Virus record (IMG/VR): IMGVR_UViG_3300006802_000179
Span: 1-43,048 of that record
Direction: 5' to 3' (one strand)
Length of the DNA stretch: 43,048 nucleotides
Source of the DNA: a virus
Made by a program: the position numbers and the translations under genes. Of this stretch, positions 2,991 through 41,130 are shown in pieces; within the stretch, counting starts at the first letter, position 1, and each line of letters begins with the position of its first letter. A model generated the notes under the pieces. That model had not been told where the DNA came from and did no database searches. It was given only the letters and a program-made list of their open reading frames with translations.

Positions 2991-3221
2991 GAGACGAGAC
3001 TGGACCCGACAGCCTTTTCGGTCAAGGGGTGCTATCTTCGCCGCCCCTTCTACTTTCTCAGACCTGCCCCACAGTAGCAGCTATCCCCGCAACGCTGGCT
3101 CGTTTCAACGCCCATTGCGGCGGCACAGTTTGCCGGTTACGCCGTCCGGCGGCATCCTGCGGAACCCTCCTTCGATCACAAAGCAGAGTTGTGCCCGATT
3201 TCTTTAACAGTTCTTACGCGA

Positions 3222-3352: not shown

Positions 3353-3535
3353 TCATTCTATATCAACTTTTGGGCTTTTGTCTAGCGGCGCAGTCATTTC
3401 ATACGCTTCACCACCGCATTTCGAGCAGAAAGCGTCGTGATCGCCTGGCTCGGCATAGGCGTCCAGTGAGCAAAAATCCACCCACTCCCACTCAATCGGG
3501 CCACATTTTTTGCATAAATACCAGTCACTTATCAT
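3353..3535 (-). CDS. small zinc-ribbon protein
   Basis: 60 residues with two paired-cysteine motifs, CKKC (residues 8-11) and CSKCG (about 37-41), separated by an acidic, aromatic-rich stretch; this is a probable one-zinc ribbon. It stands alone on the minus strand between two hairpins, one just upstream of its ATG and one downstream of its stop, so it forms a separate transcription unit. No specific function recognised. Confidence 0.6.
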   Translation of the reverse strand: MISDWYLCKKCGPIEWEWVDFCSLDAYAEPGDHDAFCSKCGGEAYEMTAPLDKSPKVDIE

Positions 3536-3543
3536 AATTTCTC

Positions 3544-3597
3544 AAAAAATAGGGGGTGACGAACAACGCCACCCCCTTGAAAGCCCCAAGAAGGGGC
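3544..3597 (-). terminator. tandem hairpins with U-run in the leader of the zinc-ribbon gene (possible attenuator)
   Basis: On the minus strand, GCCCC-TTCTT-GGGGC (3597-3583) is followed by GGGGGTG...CACCCCC (3576-3552) and then a run of six T (3549-3544), only nine bases before the ATG at 3535. It is an intrinsic-terminator shape placed in the leader of the 3353-3535 gene, so a transcript entering from the right would often stop before the coding region. Confidence 0.6.
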
Positions 3598-3618
3598 GGG
3601 GGAGGACTCAGAAACTGT

Positions 3619-3646
3619 TTGCATTACAGAAATTCTATGCTATGAT
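3619..3646 (+). promoter_or_regulatory. sigma-70-type promoter for the left rightward operon
   Basis: TTGCAT (3619-3624) and TATGAT (3641-3646) are separated by 16 bases, a reasonable -35/-10 pair. The first gene starts at 3677 with a clear AAGGAG Shine-Dalgarno (3666-3671). Confidence 0.6.
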
Positions 3647-3676
3647 GCAATTGATGTCAACAGATAAGGAGTAAAA

Positions 3677-11056: not shown

Positions 11057-13936
11057 TTATATCCCATATTCCATTTCTTTTGGATTCCAAACAGGAGAGC
11101 GTTCCCTGCCCTCTTCCAGTGGAGTAAGCCATTCAGGTGGGTTTGACTTTTCAAGTTTTTCAGGTGCCGTTAATCCGGTATTGGCAAGCCAAATTCTTAT
11201 CCTGTTGGCAATTTCTGCTTTTCTTTTTGGAGAAGGTGTTCTTTCTAAAAGCATTGCCATTATTTCAGGATTTTCAATCGCCTCTATAAATACATCTTGT
11301 ATTTTTGATTGAGGAACCTTTTCAAACAATTTTCTGGAAAACTCTGATCCTCTTTGAGCGGCCAAAAGAGAAGAGCCGCCTTCTCCTAATCTAGCTCCAA
11401 TTCTTGCTCCAACCAGTCTCGACAAAAGATCATACAAACCCTCTGTATCTATCGCTGTTTTTAATTGAGCGCCAACTTTTAAATTTGTATCCAAATTTTC
11501 AAGAGACCTGATAAGTTTGCGTAACTGAACAGCTTCTCTTTTTGTCATTACGCCATGACGCACCATCATCTCAACTGGACTAGGCCCACTAGTTCCAGCG
11601 GTTCCCCATAAAGAATTTTTAAATTTCAGTACGTTTAATGTACCGTCATCATTTAACGCCTTTTTAAATGCGTATTCCAAAGTTGCGGCTTTAAGACCAC
11701 CAAGAGCGCCTTTAGCATTTTTACCGGACTGCCTTGCGGCTTTTACAAGCCTGAAGTAGTCTTTTTGAGGCGTAATGCTTGAAAACACTTTTCCAACAGC
11801 AGCAGCAGAATCTTCTCCATTAATGACCAATTCAAAAGCGGCTCTTTGTCGCATCCTGAAACTTTCCCAGGTTTTTCCGGATTTACCAAGAATTGCTTCC
11901 GCTTTTCTCAAATCTATGAGGTTGTTTTTTAATTCTGGGAACCTGTTCAATGTTTCTTGGTTGTTTTGCAAAAATCTTGTTAATTTATCTGGGCTAAACG
12001 AACCGTCATTATTTCTAGCCGCAATCGCAGCAGACCTTAAAAATTCTTCCTGTTGCTGCATCATGGATTTATTGGAAAAGTTTACGGCATCCTCCAATTC
12101 GCCTAGCTGAATTGAACCTCTTTCTCCTCCTTGACCAAAAGCCCTTTCCAATAACAAACTTGGTCTAATAGTAGCAGCGCCCTGCCTTGTTACGGAAAGA
12201 GCTGTTCCGGCAAATGTTCTGGAAAACTTATCATTAAGTTGTTTTGAAAATTCTCTTGCTTCAGCATAACCTGGCGCATTGATATTATTTAAATCAGAAA
12301 GAACGCCATCAGCCATTTCTTCATAAATTCTCGCGGTTGCCCAATCTTTTGCGCCCCTTGATTTTCTGGCCTCTTCCAAAAGTCTTGACCTGAAAGTTAT
12401 CAATTCTCCAGTTGTCAACGGGCCTTTTTCAAGTTCTTTTAATCTATCCGCTCGAAGTGAAGTTATTGCATCTTCTTTGCTAAGACCAGATGCAACAAGA
12501 TCATTAACGTCTTCAACATGAATACCGGCCAACAAACGCATTCTTCTCATTTGCTCCCGAATTGTCACTGGAAGCGCATCAGAAGGAATCTTTAATCGCT
12601 CTGATTTTAACTTTGTAAATTGTTCAAATGTATTTGAAGCATTTTCGACTCTAACTGTTTTGTCTACTTTGTCCCAATATTCAGTTTTTTCAATTCTTCT
12701 GACATCCGTAAGCGCATCCTCAAGCATTTTGTAACTTGCCGCAGAAGGAGAGCCAACATCTTTTATTTCAGGGAACCTGCCCCTTTCTACAGTTGCCGCA
12801 TCTTTTACTATTTGCAATCTTGCGTCTACAAGATCATCAATATATTCAGTCTTCATTCTTGCTGCTGCGCGCAATAACTCCTTATTCTCAGACGCCGATA
12901 ATGCCTGAATTAAAGCCTGTATATCTAATCTTGTTGCCTCAATGGCTTTTGAATAACGCATTCCAAAATCTTTATCCAGCTTTCTTAATTTTTCCTCAAG
13001 CGCCAATATTGTTGGACTTCCGCTTTTCATGCCGGCAGTTTGTCCAATATCAAACCCTTTCTTTCTAAGGGCTGCGGCAATAGCGCCAGGGTCTTCACCA
13101 GCTTCATTTAAGGCGTTTACCAACAAAACTGCTGCGCGATCCCTTCTTCCTTCAGGAGTCAAGGTATTAATAAGATGCTTAACATTCTGAACCTGTTGAG
13201 CAGCAAGTCTGTAAAAAATACCAACTGGATTGGCAAAGCCTCCAACTAGCTCACCAACTAATCTTCCGTACCCGCCAGGGTCCAAAGCCTCACCAAAAAA
13301 CGCCCCTTGCATTGCCCCCAAAGTAGAGCCTGCTTCAGCAGCAGCAAGGCTTTTTTTGTGCTTTAAAATATTTTCGCCAACCTTGCCAAGAGTTTTTGCT
13401 TTTGCCAAAGTCCCAATTCCGCCGGCTAATACAATATTGCCGCCAGCAACCTCTCCGGCAGCGGCAACCGGCCTATCCGACAATGGCAAATCTTCCAAAG
13501 AATCATAAGCAAAATTATCGCCAGCAAGTTTATTAATGCCTGACCGGACTGTATCGCTTCCCAATGGCACATCAACTAAAGTATCAGAGCCATCGTTAAA
13601 AAGTCTGGTTTTGTCGGCCCGTCTTTCAATACTATTGATGCCATATTGAAAAATATCTGATGGAGCGCCCAGAATTTGAGAAACGCCGGTAGCCATTCCA
13701 CGATTAAACGCACGCAATGGATCGTGTGGTGGAAGGTCACTGCCAGTTACAAGAAAATGAATAATGCCTTCATCAGATATGCCGCTATCCCGCATTTTTT
13801 GTAATTTTTTAACATTAATTTCACCAGACGCCATAATAGTGTCAACAATATCCTTGTCGGTATATCCAGCGTCTTTCATTTTCTTGATATTATCTAGCTT
13901 GTTAGCTAGAGGTCCAGCATACTTTGGCTCTGTCAT
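11057..13936 (-). CDS. large internal virion / DNA-ejection protein
   Basis: 959 residues, the longest gene. The N-terminus has tandem helical units with DAGYTDKDIVDTIMASG-like repeats (residues 28-70), then a Gly/Ala-rich segment (about 155-225, GGNIVLAGGIGTLAKAKTLGK) that could be membrane-active, and a long Lys/Glu/Leu helical body. No transglycosylase motif seen. Size, composition and place between two other large proteins and the fibre match podovirus internal core proteins ejected with DNA. Overlaps 13936-15381 by one base. Confidence 0.55.
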   Translation of the reverse strand: MTEPKYAGPLANKLDNIKKMKDAGYTDKDIVDTIMASGEINVKKLQKMRDSGISDEGIIHFLVTGSDLPPHDPLRAFNRGMATGVSQILGAPSDIFQYGINSIERRADKTRLFNDGSDTLVDVPLGSDTVRSGINKLAGDNFAYDSLEDLPLSDRPVAAAGEVAGGNIVLAGGIGTLAKAKTLGKVGENILKHKKSLAAAEAGSTLGAMQGAFFGEALDPGGYGRLVGELVGGFANPVGIFYRLAAQQVQNVKHLINTLTPEGRRDRAAVLLVNALNEAGEDPGAIAAALRKKGFDIGQTAGMKSGSPTILALEEKLRKLDKDFGMRYSKAIEATRLDIQALIQALSASENKELLRAAARMKTEYIDDLVDARLQIVKDAATVERGRFPEIKDVGSPSAASYKMLEDALTDVRRIEKTEYWDKVDKTVRVENASNTFEQFTKLKSERLKIPSDALPVTIREQMRRMRLLAGIHVEDVNDLVASGLSKEDAITSLRADRLKELEKGPLTTGELITFRSRLLEEARKSRGAKDWATARIYEEMADGVLSDLNNINAPGYAEAREFSKQLNDKFSRTFAGTALSVTRQGAATIRPSLLLERAFGQGGERGSIQLGELEDAVNFSNKSMMQQQEEFLRSAAIAARNNDGSFSPDKLTRFLQNNQETLNRFPELKNNLIDLRKAEAILGKSGKTWESFRMRQRAAFELVINGEDSAAAVGKVFSSITPQKDYFRLVKAARQSGKNAKGALGGLKAATLEYAFKKALNDDGTLNVLKFKNSLWGTAGTSGPSPVEMMVRHGVMTKREAVQLRKLIRSLENLDTNLKVGAQLKTAIDTEGLYDLLSRLVGARIGARLGEGGSSLLAAQRGSEFSRKLFEKVPQSKIQDVFIEAIENPEIMAMLLERTPSPKRKAEIANRIRIWLANTGLTAPEKLEKSNPPEWLTPLEEGRERSPVWNPKEMEYGI

Positions 13937-30022: not shown

Positions 30023-30931
30023 TCAGACATTCCCGTAACGGGTGTTTTTGAGCATTTTGTAGCCCTTGACCAGCTCAATAATCCCGTCATCAAGCGTGTG
30101 CAAGAACTCATAATTCGTGTTCAGAAGTTTCTTGCTTGAAACCTCGTAATTCCTTTGGTCTGGGTCTTTTCCGGCATCCATTTCTACATAGGAAAACGGA
30201 ACATGATTCTTGATCGCCTCGCAAATCTCGATTTTTGAAGCACTAAACGCCCCTACGTTATATACCCCGTCAGGCAGCTTGAAACCATGAATAATGGCCC
30301 TTGCGGCGTCCCTGACGTGCAAACAGGTGCGCTTGAAATGCCCCTCATAAATGACGATTGTCCCTTCTTTAACGGCTTTCCAGACAAAATCATTTATCAG
30401 AAGGTCAAGGCGCATCCTCGGAGACATGCCAAATACCGTGGCAAACCTCAAACTAACTGAATTGCTGCGCTGCAACAGGGCAGTTTCAACGATTGCCTTG
30501 TCTTTTGCGTAAGTAGAGAGCGGATTGATCGGTGTGCCCTCTGAGCACTCCCCTGACGAATTTGAGCCATAGGCGCTCTCGGTGGTAGGCATGATGACCT
30601 TCTGATCGTTAGAGAGCGATCTGAGCAGCCTCAGGGGGTGTTCCAGATTAACCAGGCTGGCGTCTATCGGGTTGCGGTCGCACAATGGCGCGCCGACCAG
30701 ACCGGCAAGCGGGATGATTATGTCCGCTGAAGAAACGTGGTGCTTGATTGCATCCCAATTCCTTACGTCTGCCTTTTCGACGTTAAACAGGGAATTGTTG
30801 CAAATGCCGGCAAGGCTGTTCTGGTCATAGATAAAGTTATCCACAACCTTAACCCTGTAATTCTCCGCAAGCAATTCAGGAACAAGGACGCTACCAATGT
30901 AGCCAGCGCCACCAAGAACAAGCACGTTCAT
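30023..30931 (-). CDS. NAD-dependent nucleotide-sugar epimerase/dehydratase
   Basis: 302 residues, extended SDR family. GGAGYIGS (residues 7-14) is the NAD-binding glycine motif; PLAGLVGAP follows the fourth strand; TTESAYGSN and YAKDK (about 142-146) supply the Ser and YxxxK catalytic residues; RFATVFGMSPRMRLD is the substrate-binding loop. Probably converts an activated sugar by epimerisation or dehydration. Second of two such genes in the cassette. Confidence 0.75.
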   Translation of the reverse strand: MNVLVLGGAGYIGSVLVPELLAENYRVKVVDNFIYDQNSLAGICNNSLFNVEKADVRNWDAIKHHVSSADIIIPLAGLVGAPLCDRNPIDASLVNLEHPLRLLRSLSNDQKVIMPTTESAYGSNSSGECSEGTPINPLSTYAKDKAIVETALLQRSNSVSLRFATVFGMSPRMRLDLLINDFVWKAVKEGTIVIYEGHFKRTCLHVRDAARAIIHGFKLPDGVYNVGAFSASKIEICEAIKNHVPFSYVEMDAGKDPDQRNYEVSSKKLLNTNYEFLHTLDDGIIELVKGYKMLKNTRYGNV

Positions 30932-31209
30932 GCTAGATTAGTCTCTACTTCTTTATCATTATCTTTAATGAATTTTCTTAACTTATTGTCCATAGGTTCG
31001 CCATAAAGCCAACCACCTTCATGCTCTTTCCATAAAACAAAATCTTCCCAATCCCCTGCATTACTCAAACACCACTCAAATGTGTAATCATAAAAATGAT
31101 CTAATTTCTTCTTTGACGGCTGGCCATACCAACCCAAACCAAGATTCTTCCCAAGCATTATGCCTACTTGTGAAGGACGGTGAATTAACCACATCCTGTT
31201 ATTAGCCAA
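30928..31209 (-). CDS. hypothetical protein in the glycan cassette
   Basis: 93 residues rich in Trp, Tyr and charged residues (NNRMWLIHRPSQVGIMLGKNLGLGWYG; FEWCLSNAGDWEDFVLWKE). No motif recognised. It lies between the thiamine-diphosphate enzyme and the second epimerase with short overlaps on both sides, so it is probably co-translated; a small accessory role is possible. Confidence 0.5.
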   Translation of the reverse strand: MANNRMWLIHRPSQVGIMLGKNLGLGWYGQPSKKKLDHFYDYTFEWCLSNAGDWEDFVLWKEHEGGWLYGEPMDNKLRKFIKDNDKEVETNLA

Positions 31210-32320
31210 GATTCGCCTCCATTTCTTCCCTCGGCAGCGGGGGGTCTTGGTCGCATAAATCCTGATCGAATCGGTTAATTCTTGGCAGGTATTCGTAGAA
31301 GTCGTGGTGGATTACATCAAAAATAACTGCTTCGTCAGATTTAAGACTTTCAACCATCCACGGCGCTAAGTCATCCCATCCTTTAATAACAAATGGGGCA
31401 ACTTTATATGCTTTTGCTATCTCAAAGAAATCCGGCGGGTTATAGCCATCAGGGCCGCAGGCATAGAATCTTGAGTCAAAGTTGTACTTCTGGAATAACT
31501 TGGTGTTCCCGTAACAGTGGTTGTTCAGGATAAATACCTTGATATTTATTCCGTAGTTCACGATGGTCTGGAGTTCTTGCAGGTTCATGTTGAACCCGCC
31601 ATCGCCTATGAAACAGACTATCGGTCTGGTCTTGTCGGCAAACCATGCCCCCATAGCGCCGCACATGGCAAAGCCCATCGGGGAGTTTCCGTTGGAGCTG
31701 AATATCTTCTGGCCGCGCTTTGGCTTGAAGGCATGACCCATCATTATTGCGCTGCCACCTGTGTCATAAACAATGATGGCATTGCTCGGAATGACTTCGG
31801 AAATCTTTCGCATAAACCCGTAGTGATGGAAACCTTCAAACATTTCCTCTTTTACGGGGTCATACTTGATTACCCATTCCTTGCACTTTTGAAGCCACGC
31901 TTCAGGCGTTTTCTGGGGAATTTCAGCAAATTTTGCCCAGAAAAGACCCGAATCCATGCGGATTTTAACGTCAAAATCCACCGAATCCAGTACGGCTTGA
32001 TCTGCATCAATGATGTATTTTTTGGCTCTGGGGGCGAAGTTTTCAGGCATTCCGCCCGTAATCCGGCCTGAAATACGGCAACCAACCGCTACCAGAAGGT
32101 CACAAGCCTGTACGGCAAAGTTGCGACCAGGTCCACCGTAAGTCCCGACTACGCCGGCATAGCAATCCATATCCGGCGTTACCTTGTCTAAGGCATTCCA
32201 TGTAACGACGCATGGATATTCAAGATCAAACGGCAGATTAGATACGTCACCAGCACCGCCACCAACCAGAAAGAGCGGCCTTTTGGCATTGTGGAGGTCT
32301 TCAGCTAGATTTTTGAACAT
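31202..32320 (-). CDS. thiamine-diphosphate enzyme, central and PP domains (C-terminal subunit)
   Basis: 372 residues from ATG 32320 (MFKNLAEDLHNAKRPLFLVGGGAGD). The first half is the Rossmann-like central domain of acetolactate-synthase-type enzymes; the second is the pyrophosphate domain, with GDGGFNMNLQELQTIVNYG...ILNN, the GDG-X(26)-NN cofactor motif. The matching PYR domain is in the overlapping upstream gene, so an active enzyme requires both. Cassette context suggests carbon-carbon bond chemistry on a keto-sugar, as in YerE-type enzymes, rather than amino acid synthesis. The longer frame from 32368 is less likely. Confidence 0.75.
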   Translation of the reverse strand: MFKNLAEDLHNAKRPLFLVGGGAGDVSNLPFDLEYPCVVTWNALDKVTPDMDCYAGVVGTYGGPGRNFAVQACDLLVAVGCRISGRITGGMPENFAPRAKKYIIDADQAVLDSVDFDVKIRMDSGLFWAKFAEIPQKTPEAWLQKCKEWVIKYDPVKEEMFEGFHHYGFMRKISEVIPSNAIIVYDTGGSAIMMGHAFKPKRGQKIFSSNGNSPMGFAMCGAMGAWFADKTRPIVCFIGDGGFNMNLQELQTIVNYGINIKVFILNNHCYGNTKLFQKYNFDSRFYACGPDGYNPPDFFEIAKAYKVAPFVIKGWDDLAPWMVESLKSDEAVIFDVIHHDFYEYLPRINRFDQDLCDQDPPLPREEMEANLG

Positions 32321-32855
32321 CTGTCGGCAAGTCCAGCACAACAGGGCCGGGGCGACCCTCCCGCGCAACCGTTATGAGGTAATCCAGCGTCGGCAAGACA
32401 TTGGACGGCGTGAGAATCGTCATTGCTGCTTTGGAAATCGGACGGAAAATACCCACCGTGTCCGTTTCCTGAAAACCCAATTGCCTGAGTTTTTCGTCCT
32501 GCCGCATGAACCGGCTGTTTACTTGCCCGGTTATGAACAAGACAGGAACAGAGTCATAAAAACAATTACCAATACAAGTCGCCACGTTAAGAGCGCCAGG
32601 GCCACTTGTGACAATACAGACTCCGAAACCGTTGATTCTGGCGTATCCCTCCGCCATGAAACCGGCGGCTTGTTCGTGCATTGGACAAACGTAATCAAGA
32701 TTATGGCGAGGCAAAGCATCCCAAAGATTGCTGATAGCACCACCATAGACGCCAAAAACAACGTCAACTTCCTGTTTTAGCCTCTTTGCGATTCTATCCG
32801 ATACCAGTCCAAAGTCTTTTTTAAGCCCTGTTTCATGCTCGTTTTGGGTCTCCAT
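32301..32855 (-). CDS. thiamine-diphosphate enzyme, PYR domain (N-terminal subunit)
   Basis: 184 residues from ATG 32855, preceded by AGAGGA; a TTG at 32879 would extend it by eight. VFGVYGGAISNLWDAL, MHEQAAGFMAEGYAR (with the catalytic Glu of ThDP enzymes), SGPGALNVATCIGNCFYDSVPVLFITGQV and GRPGPVVLDLPTDVQ are the complete PYR domain of acetolactate-synthase-like proteins. The stop falls exactly at the domain boundary and the next gene starts 20 bases earlier in another frame. Either a true two-subunit enzyme or a split by frameshift. Confidence 0.75.
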   Translation of the reverse strand: METQNEHETGLKKDFGLVSDRIAKRLKQEVDVVFGVYGGAISNLWDALPRHNLDYVCPMHEQAAGFMAEGYARINGFGVCIVTSGPGALNVATCIGNCFYDSVPVLFITGQVNSRFMRQDEKLRQLGFQETDTVGIFRPISKAAMTILTPSNVLPTLDYLITVAREGRPGPVVLDLPTDVQKSS

Positions 32856-33640
32856 CCGTATCCTCTTAGCTTGTCGCAATTCACTCTGCGTGCGGCAATC
32901 GCCGTTGGCTTGCCAGGGTCATACTTTATATCAGGGTCGTAGCCTTCTTCTTCGATCAGGATGGTAGCAATTTCGTTTACGCTCATTTCCTCGCCTGAGC
33001 CTACGTTATAGGCACCAGCAGGCAAATCCATGAGCATTGCGTCCACCAGATCGTCAATATAGACAGCATCCCTTGTTTCGGTGCCATCGCCCCAGATAAC
33101 GAAGGGGTCTTGCCTTTCGGCGACTTTCCTTACTGTGGCTTCGATGACGTGGGAGTACTGAGGATCGAAATTGTTTTCAGGCCCATACACGTTTGAAGGT
33201 CTAAAGAACAATATGTCCATTGGGTACATTTGGGCGAGTCTGTAAATGAAACGGTGCGCCGTTCCGGGGCAAAAATACTTTGGGTGGAGATCACCCGTGT
33301 CGTAATCTTCTTCATCTACAGGTTCTCCAGTATTGGGGTATCCGGTGGTGCTCTGTATACATACAACCCTCTTTACGCCAGCCTGCCGGCAAGCCTCGAA
33401 TACGTTCATGTGAATGCGCACATTGGGCAAAACGAAGGAAAACGGGTCTTTAGCCATCCTGCCGACCCCTCCGGTCCTTCCGGCGCACAAATACACCGTA
33501 TCGCCTTCCCCGATGTGCTTTTCGATGCCTTCGCCGTCAAGAAAGTAACCATGTGAACTTGACGGGACGTGCCACGCATCAGGCAACCTCTTTGAAACAG
33601 CACTACCAATGAACCCCATGCTTCCAAACACAACATCCAT
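32777..33640 (-). CDS. NAD-dependent epimerase/dehydratase (GDP-fucose-synthase-like)
   Basis: 287 residues from ATG 33640 (MDVVFGSMGFIGSAVSKRL); the ATG shares its A with the upstream TGA and follows GGAAGGAAG. G-S-M-GFIGS is the nucleotide-binding motif; YLCAGRTGGVGRM and ANVR-type region match sugar reductases/epimerases; QSTTGYPNTGEPV gives the Ser site and RPSNVYGPENNFDPQYSHV the substrate loop. The usual YxxxK Tyr appears replaced in the H-R-F-I-Y-R-L-A region (HRFIYRLA), so activity is uncertain. Confidence 0.7.
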   Translation of the reverse strand: MDVVFGSMGFIGSAVSKRLPDAWHVPSSSHGYFLDGEGIEKHIGEGDTVYLCAGRTGGVGRMAKDPFSFVLPNVRIHMNVFEACRQAGVKRVVCIQSTTGYPNTGEPVDEEDYDTGDLHPKYFCPGTAHRFIYRLAQMYPMDILFFRPSNVYGPENNFDPQYSHVIEATVRKVAERQDPFVIWGDGTETRDAVYIDDLVDAMLMDLPAGAYNVGSGEEMSVNEIATILIEEEGYDPDIKYDPGKPTAIAARRVNCDKLRGYGWRPKTSMKQGLKKTLDWYRIESQRG

Positions 33641-34212
33641 CAGTTTCTTCCTTCCCACAATCTGTAATTCTGGTATCTCGGTTTCAGGAAATTCTGCATC
33701 AACCTGTCGGCAAGCCTTATATCCACTGAGTACCTTGTTCCACCCTTCATGGTGCGGTGCAAACAAGAGGTGCTGACGATGTGCATATAGCCCTCTTCCA
33801 TCTTTCCAATGTATTCAGGCCCGAAATCCGGCACATCCCGATAGTCATTATATTCCACATTTAGAATATCGAGGTTCTTCGTTGGGCGAAAAAATTCCAC
33901 CCCGCCGGCCTCGAAATCCCCACAAATGGGGAACATGATGATCTTTCCGGGTGAATTACCGCTCCAAACGTCCGAATGAATATAGGAGCTGTCGTATCTT
34001 CCGGTGTTTTCGGTGGGTTTTTTCCTCAAAATAGGCTTTCCAACGTATTTCAAGTCAAAAAACTGCTCCAAAATCCCGAAAACCATGTCTTTAAAGGACT
34101 CCGGCGTTTCAACCTCACCGTTAATGCGCGCTTCATTGGCAAAGTGCTTCTTCGATCCCTCAATCAATTCAGAGAGGTCAAGCGGCACTTTTTTCAACAA
34201 ATCTTCGGACAT
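33640..34212 (-). CDS. 2-oxoglutarate/Fe(II) oxygenase-like protein
   Basis: About 190 residues from an internal ATG at 34212 (MSEDLLKKVPLDLSELI); the longer frame overlaps the upstream gene. YIHSDVWSGNSPGKIIMFPI holds an HxD metal pair, GGVEFFRP a core strand, and HIVSTSCLHRTMKGGTRYSVDIRL the distal His and the 2-oxoglutarate-binding Arg. This pattern (HSDxWxGNS) resembles StrG-like proteins of sugar loci. Likely hydroxylates or oxidises a sugar intermediate; substrate unknown. Confidence 0.65.
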   Translation of the reverse strand: MSEDLLKKVPLDLSELIEGSKKHFANEARINGEVETPESFKDMVFGILEQFFDLKYVGKPILRKKPTENTGRYDSSYIHSDVWSGNSPGKIIMFPICGDFEAGGVEFFRPTKNLDILNVEYNDYRDVPDFGPEYIGKMEEGYMHIVSTSCLHRTMKGGTRYSVDIRLADRLMQNFLKPRYQNYRLWEGRN

Positions 34213-36344: not shown

Positions 36345-36652
36345 TCGGGACCTCTATGTGCATTTTTTCTCGAAAAAGGACTATATCAGGAAAAATATTC
36401 TCATAATCCCTCTTTCAGGAAAAAACTTTTCCTTTTTGTAAAATTGAGGGGGGTGCTAGCAAACGCTTCCGCACTCGATTTGGGGGGCGAACCCCTTCTA
36501 GACCTAGTCTGATTCCTTGATTTAGACTAAGTCTAAGAGTGATTACTAACCTGCTAGCCCTTTAGCCATGCGGCCCCAGGGTGTGAAACGGGTTGTTGGC
36601 TAGCATAAATCTTCCCTGTTGGATTCTCTGTTTTTGCCCCATCTATTGATCA
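36345..36652. promoter_or_regulatory. divergent control region with palindromes and repeats (probable late promoter, leftward)
   Basis: No gene is visible here. It contains three TCAGGAAAA repeats (36322, 36386, 36415), an extended -10-like TGATATAGT on the minus strand (TATAGT at 36385-36380, no good -35), a GGGG-CGAA-CCCC hairpin (36484-36495; UUCG loop in the minus-strand RNA), palindromes TAGACCTAGTCT (36499-36510) and TTAGACTAAGTCTAA (36522-36536), and three GCTAGC sites (36455, 36553, 36599). It separates the leftward late operon from the rightward ArdC-like unit, so it is the natural place for the late promoter and Q site. Confidence 0.5.
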
Positions 36653-36731: not shown

Positions 36732-36747
36732 TGGCACGCAATGTGCA
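36732..36747 (+). promoter_or_regulatory. sigma-54-like promoter 1 (upstream of ArdC-like gene)
   Basis: TGGCACG-CAAT-GTGCA: GG at 36733-36734, ten bases, GC at 36745-36746, the spacing of -24/-12 elements; one mismatch to TTGCA at the -12 block. The first of four such elements in the right early region. Confidence 0.45.
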
Positions 36748-36767
36748 TGTAATGGTGCAGCAGTACA

Positions 36768-36780
36768 CGCTCTTTAACAA
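36768..36780 (+). promoter_or_regulatory. rrn-type boxA antitermination site 1
   Basis: CGCTCTTTAACAA followed by TTCA is the same as the boxA core of gammaproteobacterial rRNA leaders (GCTCTTTAACA), which binds NusB-S10. It lies 22 bases after the sigma-54-like element in the untranslated leader of the ArdC-like gene. Confidence 0.6.
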
Positions 36781-36856
36781 TTCAATCACTTGTCTAGCCA
36801 TTGTGCCGCATTTTGGCACATTGGCTTACCTTTTACGTCACTGGGAGTCTAAAGCC

Positions 36857-37729
36857 ATGAAAGCGAAGGAAGCACAGCAAGCCATTATCAGCGCGATCAT
36901 CGAAGCAATGGAAAACCCTTGCAAGTGGCGGCAATGCTGGCAGGAATACGGGCAACACGCCCCAATGTCAGCAGCCACCGGCAAGCCGTACCAAGGCGGC
37001 AACGCCTTTTACTTATCCGTGCTTCAATTGTCACAAGGCCGCACAAGCCAATATTGGGCGACCTTCAATCAAATCCGCAAGATAGACGGCGCAAAACTTC
37101 GGAAAGGCAGCAAAGGCGCACATGTCATATTTTTTGAGCCAAAAGAGCGGAAAAGCTCCGAAGGCGAAACAGAAAAATATGTGATTCTGCGAACTTATGT
37201 GGTATTCAACCTTGATGATGTAGACTTTGAGCACGGTCTACCAGCTAAATTCCAAGACAATCCACAAGTCTTTGTCAACCCAGACACGGTAGACCAAGAC
37301 CTTGAAGCAAGCATAGACCGTCTTGGTGTGCAGAGAGTCAAAGGTGCGAACCCTTGTTACATCCCATCAAAAGATGTAGTTATGATGCCGGAGTTTGCGG
37401 CTTTTGACAGTGGCGCGGCGTATGCTGCAACACTGTTACACGAAGTCGCGCACTGGACGCAAGGTAAAGGCAGAATGCACCGTGATACTCATTATCACGA
37501 AGCCAGGCACCATAGAGCGTATGAAGAGCTTATCGCGGAAGCAGCCGCAGCACTAACTGCCGCTCGTTTAGGCTATCAAGTAGAGATAAGCCAGCATGGT
37601 GCCTACCTTGCTTCCTGGGCCAAAGACCTAAAAGACCGAGATCGCGAAGTCTCAAAAGCCATTAACTACGCGTGCAAGGTGGCAGACTGGCTGACCGCCG
37701 GTATGGAAAAAAGCCAAAAAACCGCATAA
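36857..37729 (+). CDS. ArdC-like antirestriction protein
   Basis: 290 residues from ATG 36857; the frame is open 68 codons further upstream, but that region holds the boxA and promoter. N-terminal ssDNA-binding ArdC domain (IEAMENPCKWRQCW, SAATGKPYQGGNAFYL, YWATFNQIRKIDGAKLRKGSKGAHVIFF) and C-terminal zincin-like domain with HEVAHWTQGKGRMHR (HExxH). ArdC-type proteins protect incoming DNA from restriction. First gene of the right unit, followed by a strong terminator. Confidence 0.8.
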   Translation: MKAKEAQQAIISAIIEAMENPCKWRQCWQEYGQHAPMSAATGKPYQGGNAFYLSVLQLSQGRTSQYWATFNQIRKIDGAKLRKGSKGAHVIFFEPKERKSSEGETEKYVILRTYVVFNLDDVDFEHGLPAKFQDNPQVFVNPDTVDQDLEASIDRLGVQRVKGANPCYIPSKDVVMMPEFAAFDSGAAYAATLLHEVAHWTQGKGRMHRDTHYHEARHHRAYEELIAEAAAALTAARLGYQVEISQHGAYLASWAKDLKDRDREVSKAINYACKVADWLTAGMEKSQKTA

Positions 37730-37740
37730 ACCTTTAAATA

Positions 37741-37763
37741 ACCCGCTCCGGCGGGTTTTTTTT
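37741..37763 (+). terminator. intrinsic terminator after the ArdC-like gene
   Basis: ACCCGC-TCCG-GCGGGT followed by a run of eight T, just after the stop codon at 37727-37729. Confidence 0.9.
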
Positions 37764-37778
37764 CGCCCTCAATTTGAC

Positions 37779-37794
37779 AGGCATGATTGTTGCA
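37779..37794 (+). promoter_or_regulatory. sigma-54-like promoter 2
   Basis: AGGCATG-ATTG-TTGCA, GG-N10-GC spacing exact (GG 37780-37781, GC 37792-37793). The block GCATGAT occurs twice with an 11-base period, and the downstream TGATGTTAGG is shared with element 3. Confidence 0.55.
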
Positions 37795-37834
37795 TGATGT
37801 TAGGCACCTATTAACCAAACAACGGAGCAAGACA

Positions 37835-38017
37835 ATGCTTACAGAATGGACTGAAGAAAATGACGCAACCTTTGCGCGCGCCGTTCAATACATGGCCGAG
37901 GACCTAGATGAAGGTTATTCGTTTGAGGGCGTTTTAACCCACATATCTGCCTTATGTGGAATTACAGAAGCCGCATTGCGGCATGAATGGAACTTGCGAA
38001 AAAACGACGTACGCTAA
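37835..38017 (+). CDS. hypothetical small acidic protein
   Basis: 60 residues from ATG 37835 (MLTEWTEENDATFARAVQYM), helical and acidic with a GITEAALRHEW segment that could be a weak helix-turn-helix. GGAG lies nine bases upstream. It is a single-gene unit: own promoter-like element before it, terminator after it. Function unknown. Confidence 0.6.
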   Translation: MLTEWTEENDATFARAVQYMAEDLDEGYSFEGVLTHISALCGITEAALRHEWNLRKNDVR

Positions 38018-38024
38018 CCAATTA

Positions 38025-38048
38025 GCCCGCTCCGGCGGGCTTTTTTTT
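38025..38048 (+). terminator. intrinsic terminator
   Basis: GCCCGC-TCCG-GCGGGC followed by eight T. Nearly the same stem-loop as at 37741, so the promoter-gene-terminator unit has been duplicated. Confidence 0.9.
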
Positions 38049-38063
38049 CGCCCGCAATCTGGC

Positions 38064-38079
38064 GGGCATGATAGTTGCA
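38064..38079 (+). promoter_or_regulatory. sigma-54-like promoter 3
   Basis: CGGGCATG-ATAG-TTGCA, with GG 38065-38066 and GC 38077-38078 (N10). Same downstream sequence as element 2 (TGATGTTAGG), and the same distance to the next ATG. Confidence 0.55.
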
Positions 38080-38119
38080 TGATGTTAGGTGCGTGTTAAC
38101 TAAACAGAGGAGCATGACA

Positions 38120-38341
38120 ATGAGTAAATTCAAAGCCTTTAGCATTCACGGCACTATTTCATTAAACGGAAATCCTGTGGGAGCATACACAACGGAAGAT
38201 GATGCAATCCGCGTAATCATCGTAACAGCCGAGATGGGCGCGACCGGTCTCAAAACCCTGACAGCCTGGATCCGGTTTAAATCCGAACTAGAAAATGTCG
38301 GTTACTTGTTTAACGACATTAACCCGCGTTTCGCGCTGTAA
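38120..38341 (+). CDS. hypothetical protein
   Basis: 73 residues from ATG 38120 (MSKFKAFSIHGTISLNGNPVGAY): an N-terminal beta sheet with a Gly/Asn turn, then a mixed C-terminal half. GAGGAG is upstream. No family recognised. Confidence 0.55.
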   Translation: MSKFKAFSIHGTISLNGNPVGAYTTEDDAIRVIIVTAEMGATGLKTLTAWIRFKSELENVGYLFNDINPRFAL

Positions 38342-38434
38342 CAGTATGCACGATTTTACTTGCATCATTCAAAAAAGGCGCGCATACTCGAGACACATCA
38401 ATTGCCGCTTGCGGCGCAACCCGGAGAAAAGACA

Positions 38435-38731
38435 ATGGCGAAAATTACCTTTAAGGGCAAGGTAGAGCAAGTGTACAACATGGACGACACGCCGGCATTC
38501 TTGCGAATAAAAGTGCCTGAATTTAAACGCTCGCATTGTGACATGGCCGCTTTTCGGAAGCATCCTAAATATGGCGGCTTCGCCAACAGCGACTTATTCG
38601 CCGGCATTTTGGCGAGGATTCGCCGTAATACTTTCGGGCAGTATTCAGACTATTTACGGCTTGATCAAGTGCCCGAAGGCGTTAACGTTGACGCTTCCGA
38701 CTTTCTTGCAATTGTCAGCTTTGAAGTCTGA
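38435..38731 (+). CDS. hypothetical protein
   Basis: 98 residues from ATG 38435 (MAKITFKGKVEQVYNMDD), basic, with beta strands at both ends (AFLRIKVPEF, FLAIVSFEV). The 29-base leader ending at the ATG (38409-38437) recurs before the 38804 gene with one mismatch. Function unknown. Confidence 0.55.
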   Translation: MAKITFKGKVEQVYNMDDTPAFLRIKVPEFKRSHCDMAAFRKHPKYGGFANSDLFAGILARIRRNTFGQYSDYLRLDQVPEGVNVDASDFLAIVSFEV

Positions 38732-38803
38732 GAGGCCGCAAACCATCGGGCTCTGCGGAGTCCTTTGGCTTGCCGCTTTGCGGCGCAACCTGGAGAAAAG
38801 ACA

Positions 38804-39004
38804 ATGAAATATGAAGTAATAGTTGGAAACATTGGCACGGTCCATAGCTGCAACAATCCAGTTGAAGCAGCCGCCGTGTATGGCGATTATAAGCGCCAAA
38901 GCGAAACTAACTATGGCCGCGCCGCTGGCGAAACAGTCTATTTACTGAAAAATGGCGAACCAATGTACGAACATCATGGACGTCAGGATTACTCTGAAAA
39001 CTAG
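38804..39004 (+). CDS. hypothetical protein
   Basis: 66 residues (MKYEVIVGNIGTVHSCNNPVEAAAVYGDYK), a beta-alpha-beta look with a tail rich in His, Arg and Asp. Starts after the second copy of the GGCGCAACC...GGAGAAAAGACAATG leader (38778-38806). No family recognised. Confidence 0.55.
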   Translation: MKYEVIVGNIGTVHSCNNPVEAAAVYGDYKRQSETNYGRAAGETVYLLKNGEPMYEHHGRQDYSEN

Positions 39005-39056
39005 GCCGCAAACCATTGCCGCTTACGGGCGGCCTTGACTTGTCGCTTGGCAAGTA

Positions 39057-39136
39057 GGGTGCGGCACAACATTTCGCATCGCGCCGCGCGCGCGGAGGGA
39101 TTGCCCCGACGAACCGCGCAAGGCAACGCCGCACCC
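39057..39136 (+). ncRNA. GC-rich structured leader or small RNA
   Basis: GGGTGCGGC (39057-39065) pairs with GCCGCACCC (39128-39136), enclosing CGCGG/CCGCG (39091-39095, 39114-39118) and a GGG/CCC pair. The interval 39005-39170 has no gene; the element is much richer in G+C than its surroundings and sits upstream of the 39171 gene. Confidence 0.45.
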
Positions 39137-39170
39137 TAAACAGATCACAAGTAACTTGGAGAGCAAGACA

Positions 39171-39422
39171 ATGAAACGAGGCCAAATCGTTACCATGACA
39201 AGCGGCGCCATTGATAACTATGGCGAACAATGGGACGGCGTTAAACTAAGAATTACGCACGTCTCCGATAAATACATGCCTGCGGCAGAGTTTTTCGCTA
39301 AAGGCCGACCCGCAGGCTATCACCCAGGATATGATGAAAGCGGAGGCAAGCTCTTTGATCTTGAGCGGGTCGATACGGGCGAACCCATCGGGTTTTCCCT
39401 TTATCAGTGGGAAGTTGAATAG
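39171..39422 (+). CDS. hypothetical protein
   Basis: 83 residues from ATG 39171, beginning MKRGQIVTMTSGAIDNYGEQW, probably a small beta-barrel; ends YQWEVE. TTGGAGAG is upstream. Its position after a folded leader suggests regulated translation. Function unknown. Confidence 0.55.
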   Translation: MKRGQIVTMTSGAIDNYGEQWDGVKLRITHVSDKYMPAAEFFAKGRPAGYHPGYDESGGKLFDLERVDTGEPIGFSLYQWEVE

Positions 39423-39430
39423 GGGGCACC

Positions 39431-39601
39431 ATGAGACAACCGCAAAAATATGCCGGTCCGTTCGTCGTAACAACACGTCGCGGCAGAACCGTATCTTATC
39501 CACTGTCAATAGAGGCGGCGGAAGATGTCGCGAACTTGAGCAATAACTATCGCGGTCGAGTCATTTGGAAATGGTTTGACGGCAGGTATGTCGCAAAATG
39601 A
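39431..39601 (+). CDS. 56-residue basic protein
   Basis: MRQPQKYAGPFVVTTRRGRTVSYPLSIEAAEDVANLSNNYRGRVIWKWFDG...: two beta strands, a helix and a C-terminal strand, basic overall. The ATG follows the previous stop by eight bases with GGGGG as Shine-Dalgarno, and its stop overlaps the next start (ATGA). Function unknown. Confidence 0.55.
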   Translation: MRQPQKYAGPFVVTTRRGRTVSYPLSIEAAEDVANLSNNYRGRVIWKWFDGRYVAK

Positions 39602-39690
39602 CCAAATTCAGAATCACGTCCGTTTTGCTTGGCACAATCGTTGCTCTACTTTGGTGGAGCTTGTTCGACCTAGCTTTGTCAACACTTTGA
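39598..39690 (+). CDS. 30-residue membrane peptide
   Basis: MTKFRITSVLLGTIVALLWWSLFDLALSTL: one hydrophobic span after a short basic start, hence positive-inside topology. Overlaps the upstream stop (ATGA). Small single-span peptides are frequent in phage early regions; it could equally be untranslated. Confidence 0.45.
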   Translation: MTKFRITSVLLGTIVALLWWSLFDLALSTL

Positions 39691-39701
39691 GGAGACGAAA
39701 A

Positions 39702-39998
39702 ATGAAACTACTTGTTAATAAAGCGCAATTACAAAACATTGCTGATTCAATAATTTCCGCCAGGGACTTTTGCGGCAACGAACGCGAAGCCGCAATTTGC
39801 GCGATATATGAGGAAACGGGCTATTTGCCAAAACACAAAATAACCGGTTTCGATGAGACTATCAGTGCGGCGTTTGCCCTTGCCAATAACGAATGGCAAG
39901 GATATCAAGCGCTAGCCGGGGTGCCTGCGCAATTTCAAGACGGCAAGGGCGGCTTACACGATTGGACGATACACAAGGCGTTGAAATCAAATGACTGA
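39702..39998 (+). CDS. hypothetical protein
   Basis: 98 residues from ATG 39702 (MKLLVNKAQLQNIADSIISARDF), preceded by GGAG. Mainly helical; two Cys in the first half, and a C-terminal FQDGKGGLHDWTIHKAL segment. Overlaps the Rmf-like gene by eight bases. Function unknown. Confidence 0.55.
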   Translation: MKLLVNKAQLQNIADSIISARDFCGNEREAAICAIYEETGYLPKHKITGFDETISAAFALANNEWQGYQALAGVPAQFQDGKGGLHDWTIHKALKSND

Positions 39999-40191
39999 TA
40001 GGTTTGCAGTTGCCGAGCGCAAAGGCCGCGAAGCGTTTGAAGCAGGGTTGCAGGAAAGCGATTGCCCGTATGATGATAAGCGCAAACCGAACGGCAAATT
40101 ATCATGGTCACGCGCATGGCGCAACGCTTGGCTAATGGGGTTTCAGCTAGCCAAATTTGACGCTAAACAAACTGAAAGGGGCGAAAAATGA
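39991..40191 (+). CDS. Rmf/CrpP-like protein
   Basis: 66 residues. AERKGREAFEAGLQESDCPYDDKRKPNGKLSWSRAWRNAWLMGFQLA follows the Rmf/CrpP pattern: G..A...G....CPY, a variable loop, then W..AW..G. Ribosome modulation factor of gammaproteobacteria inactivates 70S ribosomes by dimerisation, and phage members of this family are small and of unknown role. Overlaps the next gene by ATGA. Confidence 0.6.
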   Translation: MTDRFAVAERKGREAFEAGLQESDCPYDDKRKPNGKLSWSRAWRNAWLMGFQLAKFDAKQTERGEK

Positions 40192-40394
40192 CCAGAAATC
40201 AAATCATCAATTCTCTCGAAATCGTGAGCGAAGTTTTATTTGGCTTCGCTGACGCTCAAGGACAAAAAATCACCGAGAGCAGGGCACAAGATGCGGCGCT
40301 GATGGGATTGACGCTCGAAAAAATCCGGCACGAATTGAGCGCCGACGGCGAAGCATCAGGGGCACATTCCGAGGCTGACGCGATCACTTTCTAA
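40188..40394 (+). CDS. hypothetical protein
   Basis: 68 residues, MTRNQIINSLEIVSEVLFGFADAQG, helical with an acidic, His-containing tail (HSEADAITF). Last gene before a strong terminator. No family recognised. Confidence 0.55.
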   Translation: MTRNQIINSLEIVSEVLFGFADAQGQKITESRAQDAALMGLTLEKIRHELSADGEASGAHSEADAITF

Positions 40395-40458
40395 GTGTTG
40401 TTTGAGTGAACGCGGAAACAGCATACACGCGCAAGGCGTTGTTGTCCATACGAAAAAC

Positions 40459-40497
40459 GGCAGATTGTGACAAAAATTGTCACTTTCTGCCTTTTTT
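40459..40497 (+). terminator. intrinsic terminator
   Basis: GGCAGA (40459-40464) pairs with TCTGCC (40486-40491), with GTGACA/TGTCAC inside, followed by six T. Ends the multi-gene unit that starts upstream of 38120. Confidence 0.9.
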
Positions 40498-40535
40498 CGC
40501 GGATTTGCTCCCCAATAAAATCAATGGCTTATGGC

Positions 40536-40551
40536 TGGCACAGCAATTGCA
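40536..40551 (+). promoter_or_regulatory. sigma-54-like promoter 4
   Basis: CTGGCACA-GCAA-TTGCA: GG 40537-40538, N10, GC 40549-40550; the best match of the four to TGGCAC-N5-TTGCA. It stands directly after a terminator and before an isolated gene. Confidence 0.6.
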
Positions 40552-40631
40552 TCATTATAAGCACCGGGCGGGACCAACAGGCGCAGAGCCTGGTACGGTA
40601 TAAACATCGTCGCCGGAGATCGTAACCGGCA

Positions 40632-40646
40632 CGCTCTTTGACAATT
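40632..40646 (+). promoter_or_regulatory. rrn-type boxA antitermination site 2
   Basis: CGCTCTTTGACAATT, one base from the ArdC-leader boxA. A small GCCGG/CCGGC hairpin (about 40613-40629) precedes it, the boxB-boxA order of rrn leaders. Lies 12 bases before the next ATG. Confidence 0.5.
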
Positions 40647-40657
40647 TGAGAGACCCC

Positions 40658-40897
40658 ATGAAACTCAAAAAGGTATGGAATGAAAGACGCGTTGTGTACT
40701 GCATCGACAAAATGAATGCAGATGGCACGATGCAACGCTGGTACTACCCCAACGAGTTTCCTTCGCGAGAGGATGCTCAAGGGTTCCTTGATGAGCACGG
40801 ATTCTGGCTGGCAGAGCACGGATCGGAGAGCAAAGCGCGATTGTCGATCCGCAAAGTAGTGAGACCGGCAGGATATTCGTATCAAGGCACGATTTGA
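40658..40897 (+). CDS. hypothetical protein
   Basis: 79 residues (MKLKKVWNERRVVYCIDKMNADGTMQRWYYPNEFPSREDAQGFLDEHGFWL): beta hairpin then a helix, ending in a basic tail. Long untranslated leader (about 100 bases) after the sigma-54-like element. The segment 40898-41108 downstream contains no gene I can support. Confidence 0.6.
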   Translation: MKLKKVWNERRVVYCIDKMNADGTMQRWYYPNEFPSREDAQGFLDEHGFWLAEHGSESKARLSIRKVVRPAGYSYQGTI

Positions 40898-41108
40898 CAA
40901 TTTGGACCAGCGGCCCGAGTGCCACGCGCGGGTGATCGCCGCGCCGGAAAGGTCGAGATCAAGGGAAACGCAAGCCGCACTCGCAAGCGTATCCCGCAAG
41001 AAAGGTCGGTGGAGAAATGCAAAAGTGGCTTTATTCTAGACGCAGCGCGCAGTCTAAACTATAAAGTTGAGCAAAAACTCTTGGAAGCTGACCAATCGCA
41101 ACCCTTAA

Positions 41109-41130
41109 CCCCGCTCCTGCGGGGTTTTTT
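41109..41130 (+). terminator. intrinsic terminator at the end of the rightward unit
   Basis: CCCCGC-TCCT-GCGGGG followed by six T. It meets the stop codon of the Q-like gene coming from the other strand, so the two transcription units converge here. Confidence 0.9.

Follow-up and report, generated by a model that had tools for sequence, protein, structure and literature searches.

The viral record IMGVR_UViG_3300006802_000179 of IMG/VR (43,048 bases, called the window below; end repeats were searched for and none were found) carries four elements that resemble the -24/-12 promoters of bacterial sigma-54 (RpoN). They lie on the plus strand at 36732-36747 (element 1, TGGCACGCAATGTGCA), 37779-37794 (element 2, AGGCATGATTGTTGCA), 38064-38079 (element 3, GGGCATGATAGTTGCA) and 40536-40551 (element 4, TGGCACAGCAATTGCA). 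Judged from the sequence, they are probably host sigma-54 promoters of a set of accessory transcription units, opened by a host enhancer-binding protein and followed in units 1 and 4 by a boxA. The RpoN reading is well supported by what can be observed here, namely the rank and position of the elements, the terminators in front of them, the lack of sigma-70 alternatives, their recurrence in other phages with a spacing-specific link to boxA, and the presence of NtrC boxes in two of those lineages.

Both strands of the whole window were scanned with an approximate sigma-54 matrix. The five best matches all lie on the plus strand between 36.7 and 40.6 kb, with scores of 15.1 to 17.7, and the sixth scores 13.2. 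The initial annotation had given the coordinates and strand of the four elements exactly. Their ranks are 1 (element 4; 17.7, with no mismatch to the consensus), 3 (element 1; 16.6), 4 and 5 (elements 3 and 2; 15.2 and 15.1); the annotation had overlooked rank 2, a perfect consensus match at 39630-39645 (+, TGGCACAATCGTTGCT, score 17.0) inside an open reading frame (ORF) of 30 amino acids (39600-39692). This fifth match may be coincidental: it fails on position, whereas all four elements are intergenic, correctly oriented and 5' of a gene. The GG-N10-GC core, invariant in sigma-54 promoters, is present in all four, with no more than one mismatch in the flanking consensus TGGCAYR...TTGCW. When the test was repeated with the plain consensus TGGCAYRNNNNTTGCW, both zero-mismatch sites of the window and three of its four one-mismatch sites fell within the same block. 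Simulated windows (n = 60, second-order Markov) had a mean of 0.57 matches scoring at least 15 and never two on the same strand within 4 kb; the real window has five in 4 kb. Elements 2 and 3 belong to the two copies (element 3 to the second) of a duplicated 85-nt cassette, 84% identical (repeat D1), and thus the window holds three to four independent elements, the pair being counted as one origin.

Three of the elements directly follow intrinsic terminators, as had been noticed at the outset. These plus-strand hairpins end unit 1 (37740-37757, fold z -3.9), unit 2 (38024-38041, z -4.5) and unit 3 (40459-40497, hairpin 40459-40491, z -5.6, with an inner stem TGACAAAAATTGTCA at 40468-40482), and another at 41107-41126 (+, z -4.6) ends the block. 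Unit 1, behind element 1, encodes an ArdC-like anti-restriction protein of 290 amino acids (36857-37729, +; ArdcN PF08401, 2.7e-21; zincin-like metallopeptidase PF18818, 1.2e-27). Unit 2 contains an ORF of 60 amino acids that matches no family (37835-38017, +), unit 3 contains small ORFs at 38120, 38435, 38804, 39171, 39431, 39702, 39991 and 40188 (38120-40394, +), and unit 4 contains an ORF of 79 amino acids (40658-40897, +). A scan for a sigma-70-like promoter pair at the four elements found none. Sigma-70-like promoters, including one that matches 11 of 12 positions, are found in a divergent control region at 3355-3660.

The window contains two copies of a boxA, each 3' of an element (repeat D8). 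An rrn-like boxA, CACGCTCTTTAACAATT, begins 18 nt past element 1 (36766-36782, +), and a boxA-like sequence, CACGCTCTTTGACAATT, lies downstream of element 4 (40630-40646, +). Compared with the published consensus GYTCTTTAANA, the former is exact at 36769 and the latter, at 40633, is one base off (PMC5725501). The boxA leaders of rrn and suhB likewise have GCTCTTTAACA downstream of the promoter (PMC5725501), whereas those of the window stand in phage units that begin with a -24/-12 element. We infer that boxA in units 1 and 4 would act as an antitermination leader recruiting Nus factors.

The combination of element and boxA recurs in other phages. Viral contigs were scanned for GGCAY-N6-TGCA with GCTCTTTRACAA 5-35 nt downstream; this returned eight stretches, of which six are independent and apparently intergenic (L028, L029, L030, which equals L032, L031, L034 and L035). 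A second scan added L042, so that seven other phages have a -24/-12 element with boxA; a control scan with the spacing increased by one base returned one stretch. Three extra matches (L033, L041 and L043), which appear to lie in coding sequence, were excluded. Positions left free in the query still follow the sigma-54 consensus, with T before GG in 8 of 9 cases and R after Y in 9 of 9. By our reading of the translations, on which all gene names in these other phages rest, the element adjoins a divergently oriented terminase gene in L029, L030, L031 and L035, and in L034 it sits at the point of divergence from the late operon. L030, L034 and L035 have terminases that differ both in sequence and in their closest phages. 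An exact 25-mer of elements 2 and 3 was found in no viral contig. Bacterial and archaeal genomes totalling 257 Gb contained only four stretches with a slightly stricter pattern of element plus boxA (one extra T and a different gap range); most of these are not promoter-like and were rejected, and one, L039 from a Phycisphaerales metagenome-assembled genome, could be a real instance.

For the L030 family, 80 terminase relatives were taken, 51 of them with enough upstream sequence (357 kb). Strong elements occur in the close L030 clade and in the more distant L088; most other relatives have none, including most of those with 70-74% terminase identity. The ten matches that score at least 17 all point in the early direction and lie between 1.0 and 1.6 kb upstream of the terminase, although they come from related sequences and represent perhaps four or five independent cases. 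The relatives of L035, Sinorhizobium phage phiM5 among them, have no strong elements. In MW202796, which is related to L034, one element (score 17.1) lies upstream of the late operon, at L049:13102. In L034 itself, positions 11723-11851 hold a divergent pair of strong -24/-12 elements, at 11788 (-) and 11836 (+), together with tandem TGACAA-N3-TTGTCA dyads; the late-directed element of this pair is the one with a counterpart at L049:13102.

A sigma-54 promoter is silent until a host enhancer-binding protein acts on it. The candidate upstream sites of the window are two tandem dyads, TAGACCTAGTCTG and TTAGACTAAGTCTAA (36499-36537, 24 nt apart), some 200-230 nt in front of element 1, and a further dyad at 40468, none with a known binding protein; elements 2 and 3 have no obvious site. 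The motif TAGAC-N3-GTCTR occurs in the window only at 36499 and 36523, and this pair is a candidate enhancer (upstream activating sequence) for element 1 or, alternatively, an operator of the late promoter. Just upstream of element 4 is a match to the IHF consensus, AATCAATGGCTTA (40519-40531, +), one of two in the window. The TGACAA-N3-TTGTCA motif, present twice in L034, has its only other occurrence in the fetched loci (about 1.2 Mb, overlaps counted) at 40468 of the window. L029 has tandem dyads of its own, TGTGACGTTTTGGTCACA twice. Upstream of 13 elements we counted 17 dyads, versus 7.3 in shuffles, and 3 of 300 shuffles reached 17.

Two of the other lineages carry NtrC boxes, for which the published form is TGCACCAnnnTGGTGCA (PMC8743547). 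Perfect TGCAC-N7-GTGCA dyads, two in the phage of L030/L032/L053 and three in L088, lie about 70-220 nt upstream of the elements and occur in no others of 93 loci (743 kb). The boxes are at L053:3673-3790 and L088:2099-2215, and the corresponding elements (L053:3607 and L088:1990, - strand) lie upstream of the terminases and point away from them. By sequence, these boxes make a stronger case for nitrogen control than the window itself does. The suggestion in the initial annotation that such promoters tie expression to host nitrogen is supported for the L030/L032/L053 phage and L088 but not for the window, which has no NtrC box. Its broader proposal of phage RpoN promoters is borne out at the sequence level by rank, by recurrence and by the missing sigma-70 pair; the "early" expression that it attached to them is not. 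A search for a sigma-54 gene in the window also found none, and since neither such a gene nor a phage activator was found, a host activator would be required.

If host sigma-54 is indeed used, RNA polymerase of the host carrying it would bind the -24/-12 cores, and each element would start a plus-strand unit: ArdC, the ORF of 60 amino acids, the multi-ORF unit and the final small unit. The complex would stay closed until the promoter is opened, at the expense of ATP, by an enhancer-binding protein of the host, whose probable binding sites are upstream dyads such as those at 36499-36537. In units 1 and 4, boxA in the transcript would recruit NusB/S10 and elongation would be protected. The timing of expression of the block is thereby predicted to follow host physiology rather than the sigma-70 early programme of the phage.

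Several observations weigh against this scheme. Two of the four elements (37779 and 38064) form a duplicated pair in which GG is not preceded by T, an equally good match (39630) sits in a coding ORF, and consensus sites with up to two mismatches are not enriched (26 seen, 29 expected from shuffles). The dyad at 40468 doubles as a terminator stem. The TGCAC-N7-GTGCA dyad is absent from the window even with one mismatch allowed, and a search for activator genes in the window and in seven other phage records gave none. Finally, the close structural relatives G001-G003 (terminase 67-74%) have neither ArdC nor the block nor any strong element.

An explanation that we regard as unlikely is that the elements are operators for a phage or host repressor or activator, built on direct repeats of the GCATGAT type, and that transcription starts from weak sigma-70 promoters missed by our scan. 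A repeated GCATGAT operator with an 11-base period had been offered initially as an alternative, and GCATGAT does occur twice at 11-base spacing in elements 2 and 3. Some L030 relatives (L063 and L067) also have additional as well as facing copies of TTGGCATGATTATTG close to the element, in the style of an operator. However, GCATGAT is missing at 36732 and 40536, so that among the four elements it is confined to the duplicated pair, and GGCAY-N5-TTGCA by itself entails a GCA...GCA period of 11; the 11-base operator is therefore disfavoured. Moreover, the positions conserved across phages are those of sigma-54, two lineages have NtrC boxes, and no sigma-70-like pair accompanies the sites. As a separate observation, L063, L066 and L067 have, 1.0-1.2 kb upstream of the terminase, several copies of TTGGCATGATTATTG and two -24/-12-like elements that face each other across about 7 bases, an arrangement that looks operator-like.

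Less probable still is that sigma-70 recognizes these sites through a TTGGCA-like -35 and a TATAAG or TATATG -10, their likeness to -24/-12 being incidental. TATA-like sequences do stand 14-16 nt past TTGGCA in several phages (L029, L030) and at 40536 of the window, but spacers of 14-16 are irregular, no -10 is seen at 36732, 37779, 38064 or in L031, and a one-base shift in the GG-GC spacing abolishes the association with boxA. That chance alone produced the matches, in a block whose composition is unusual, is very improbable, for the numbers at up to two mismatches and the coding match at 39630 that would speak for it are set against clustering, a shared strand, the place behind terminators, boxA and recurrence.

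As sigma-54 promoters, the elements are close to those of the bacterial NtrC regulon, sharing the GG-N10-GC core with TTGGCAY...TTGCA and, in L030/L032/L053 and L088, the 17-bp NtrC boxes; the phage elements differ in standing beside terminase genes or morons, often with boxA next, and the window has no NtrC box. Phage transcription is usually framed in terms of sigma-70, phage sigma factors or phage polymerases. Our literature search, from which subscription journals were largely missing, found no account of sigma-54/NtrC promoters driving phage genes, early genes included. The annotation of Pseudomonas phage YuA (NC_010116) does ascribe a "-24/-12 consensus sequence" to three fragments with promoter activity, but these are located among the structural genes, and with the approximate matrix used here none exceeds a score of 8.1, far weaker than the elements of the window. 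NtcA is a CRP-type cyanobacterial regulator that works without sigma-54. Cyanophage NtcA promoters similarly place phage genes behind sites for a host nitrogen regulator (PMC3037559), though the regulator is another protein.

We would give an even chance to the more general idea of a recurrent phage promoter class, in which a host sigma-54 core with enhancer dyads bound by an activator of the host (for two or more lineages, probably marine ones, this would be NtrC), often with boxA, stands beside packaging genes or morons of unrelated phages and gates part of the programme by host nitrogen or stress. If this is true, phage expression would be a direct and tightly switched readout of host nitrogen and stress physiology. 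The NtrC boxes in these uncultured phages predict increased expression under nitrogen limitation, and the coupling to boxA suggests elongation protection without a phage antiterminator. Taken from the sequences, this suggests that in some phages the expression of part of the genes may be coupled to host nutrition.

The plus-strand block at 36.7-41.1 kb, comprising ArdC and about ten small ORFs, lies between two groups of minus-strand genes. The late and structural genes (terminase, portal, capsid and adaptor) run from 36.3 down to 8.8 kb, and the second group, at 41.1-43.0 kb, includes a methyltransferase, a VRR-NUC nuclease and a zinc-finger protein with a weak Q-like match; NinB is at the left end of the window. 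The elements had initially been placed in a right early region, a label that finds no support. Because the sigma-70-like divergent control region is at 3355-3660 and the block stands between the late and the nin/Q-like operons, the term accessory or moron-like block fits it better. It has its own putative promoters and its own terminators, is absent from relatives and is oriented opposite to the flanking operons. In this it is like the morons of lambdoid phages, which are self-contained units of promoter, gene and terminator between core modules; the promoters of the window differ in being sigma-54-like, and known morons have been described with sigma-70-type promoters. At the DNA level, the block had no meaningful match to known phages or plasmids. 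No relatives of its ArdC were found among viral contigs, and plasmid homologues are at most 37% identical.

Within unit 3, the small protein at 39991-40191 (+) has a weak likeness to ribosome modulation factor (RMF; E = 2.9e-4, below the cut-off). A Mom-like DNA modification protein is encoded at 1291-1893 (-; PF25680, 3.7e-10, above the cut-off), and together with ArdC it likely gives the phage two anti-restriction genes. The Rfam family RF02932, "Betaproteobacteria-1" RNA, matches 3004-3122 (-) with 90.7 bits, directly 5' of a minus-strand operon that starts at 2896; this may be a leader RNA, and it hints at a betaproteobacterial host. Within the late operon, nucleotide-sugar epimerase-like and TPP-enzyme-like genes (30023-33766, -), conserved in G001-G003, possibly form a surface-sugar pathway. 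In L031 (G007), the terminase large subunit is apparently split by an intein-like insertion (...DHGKCLVEGELILGADG...).

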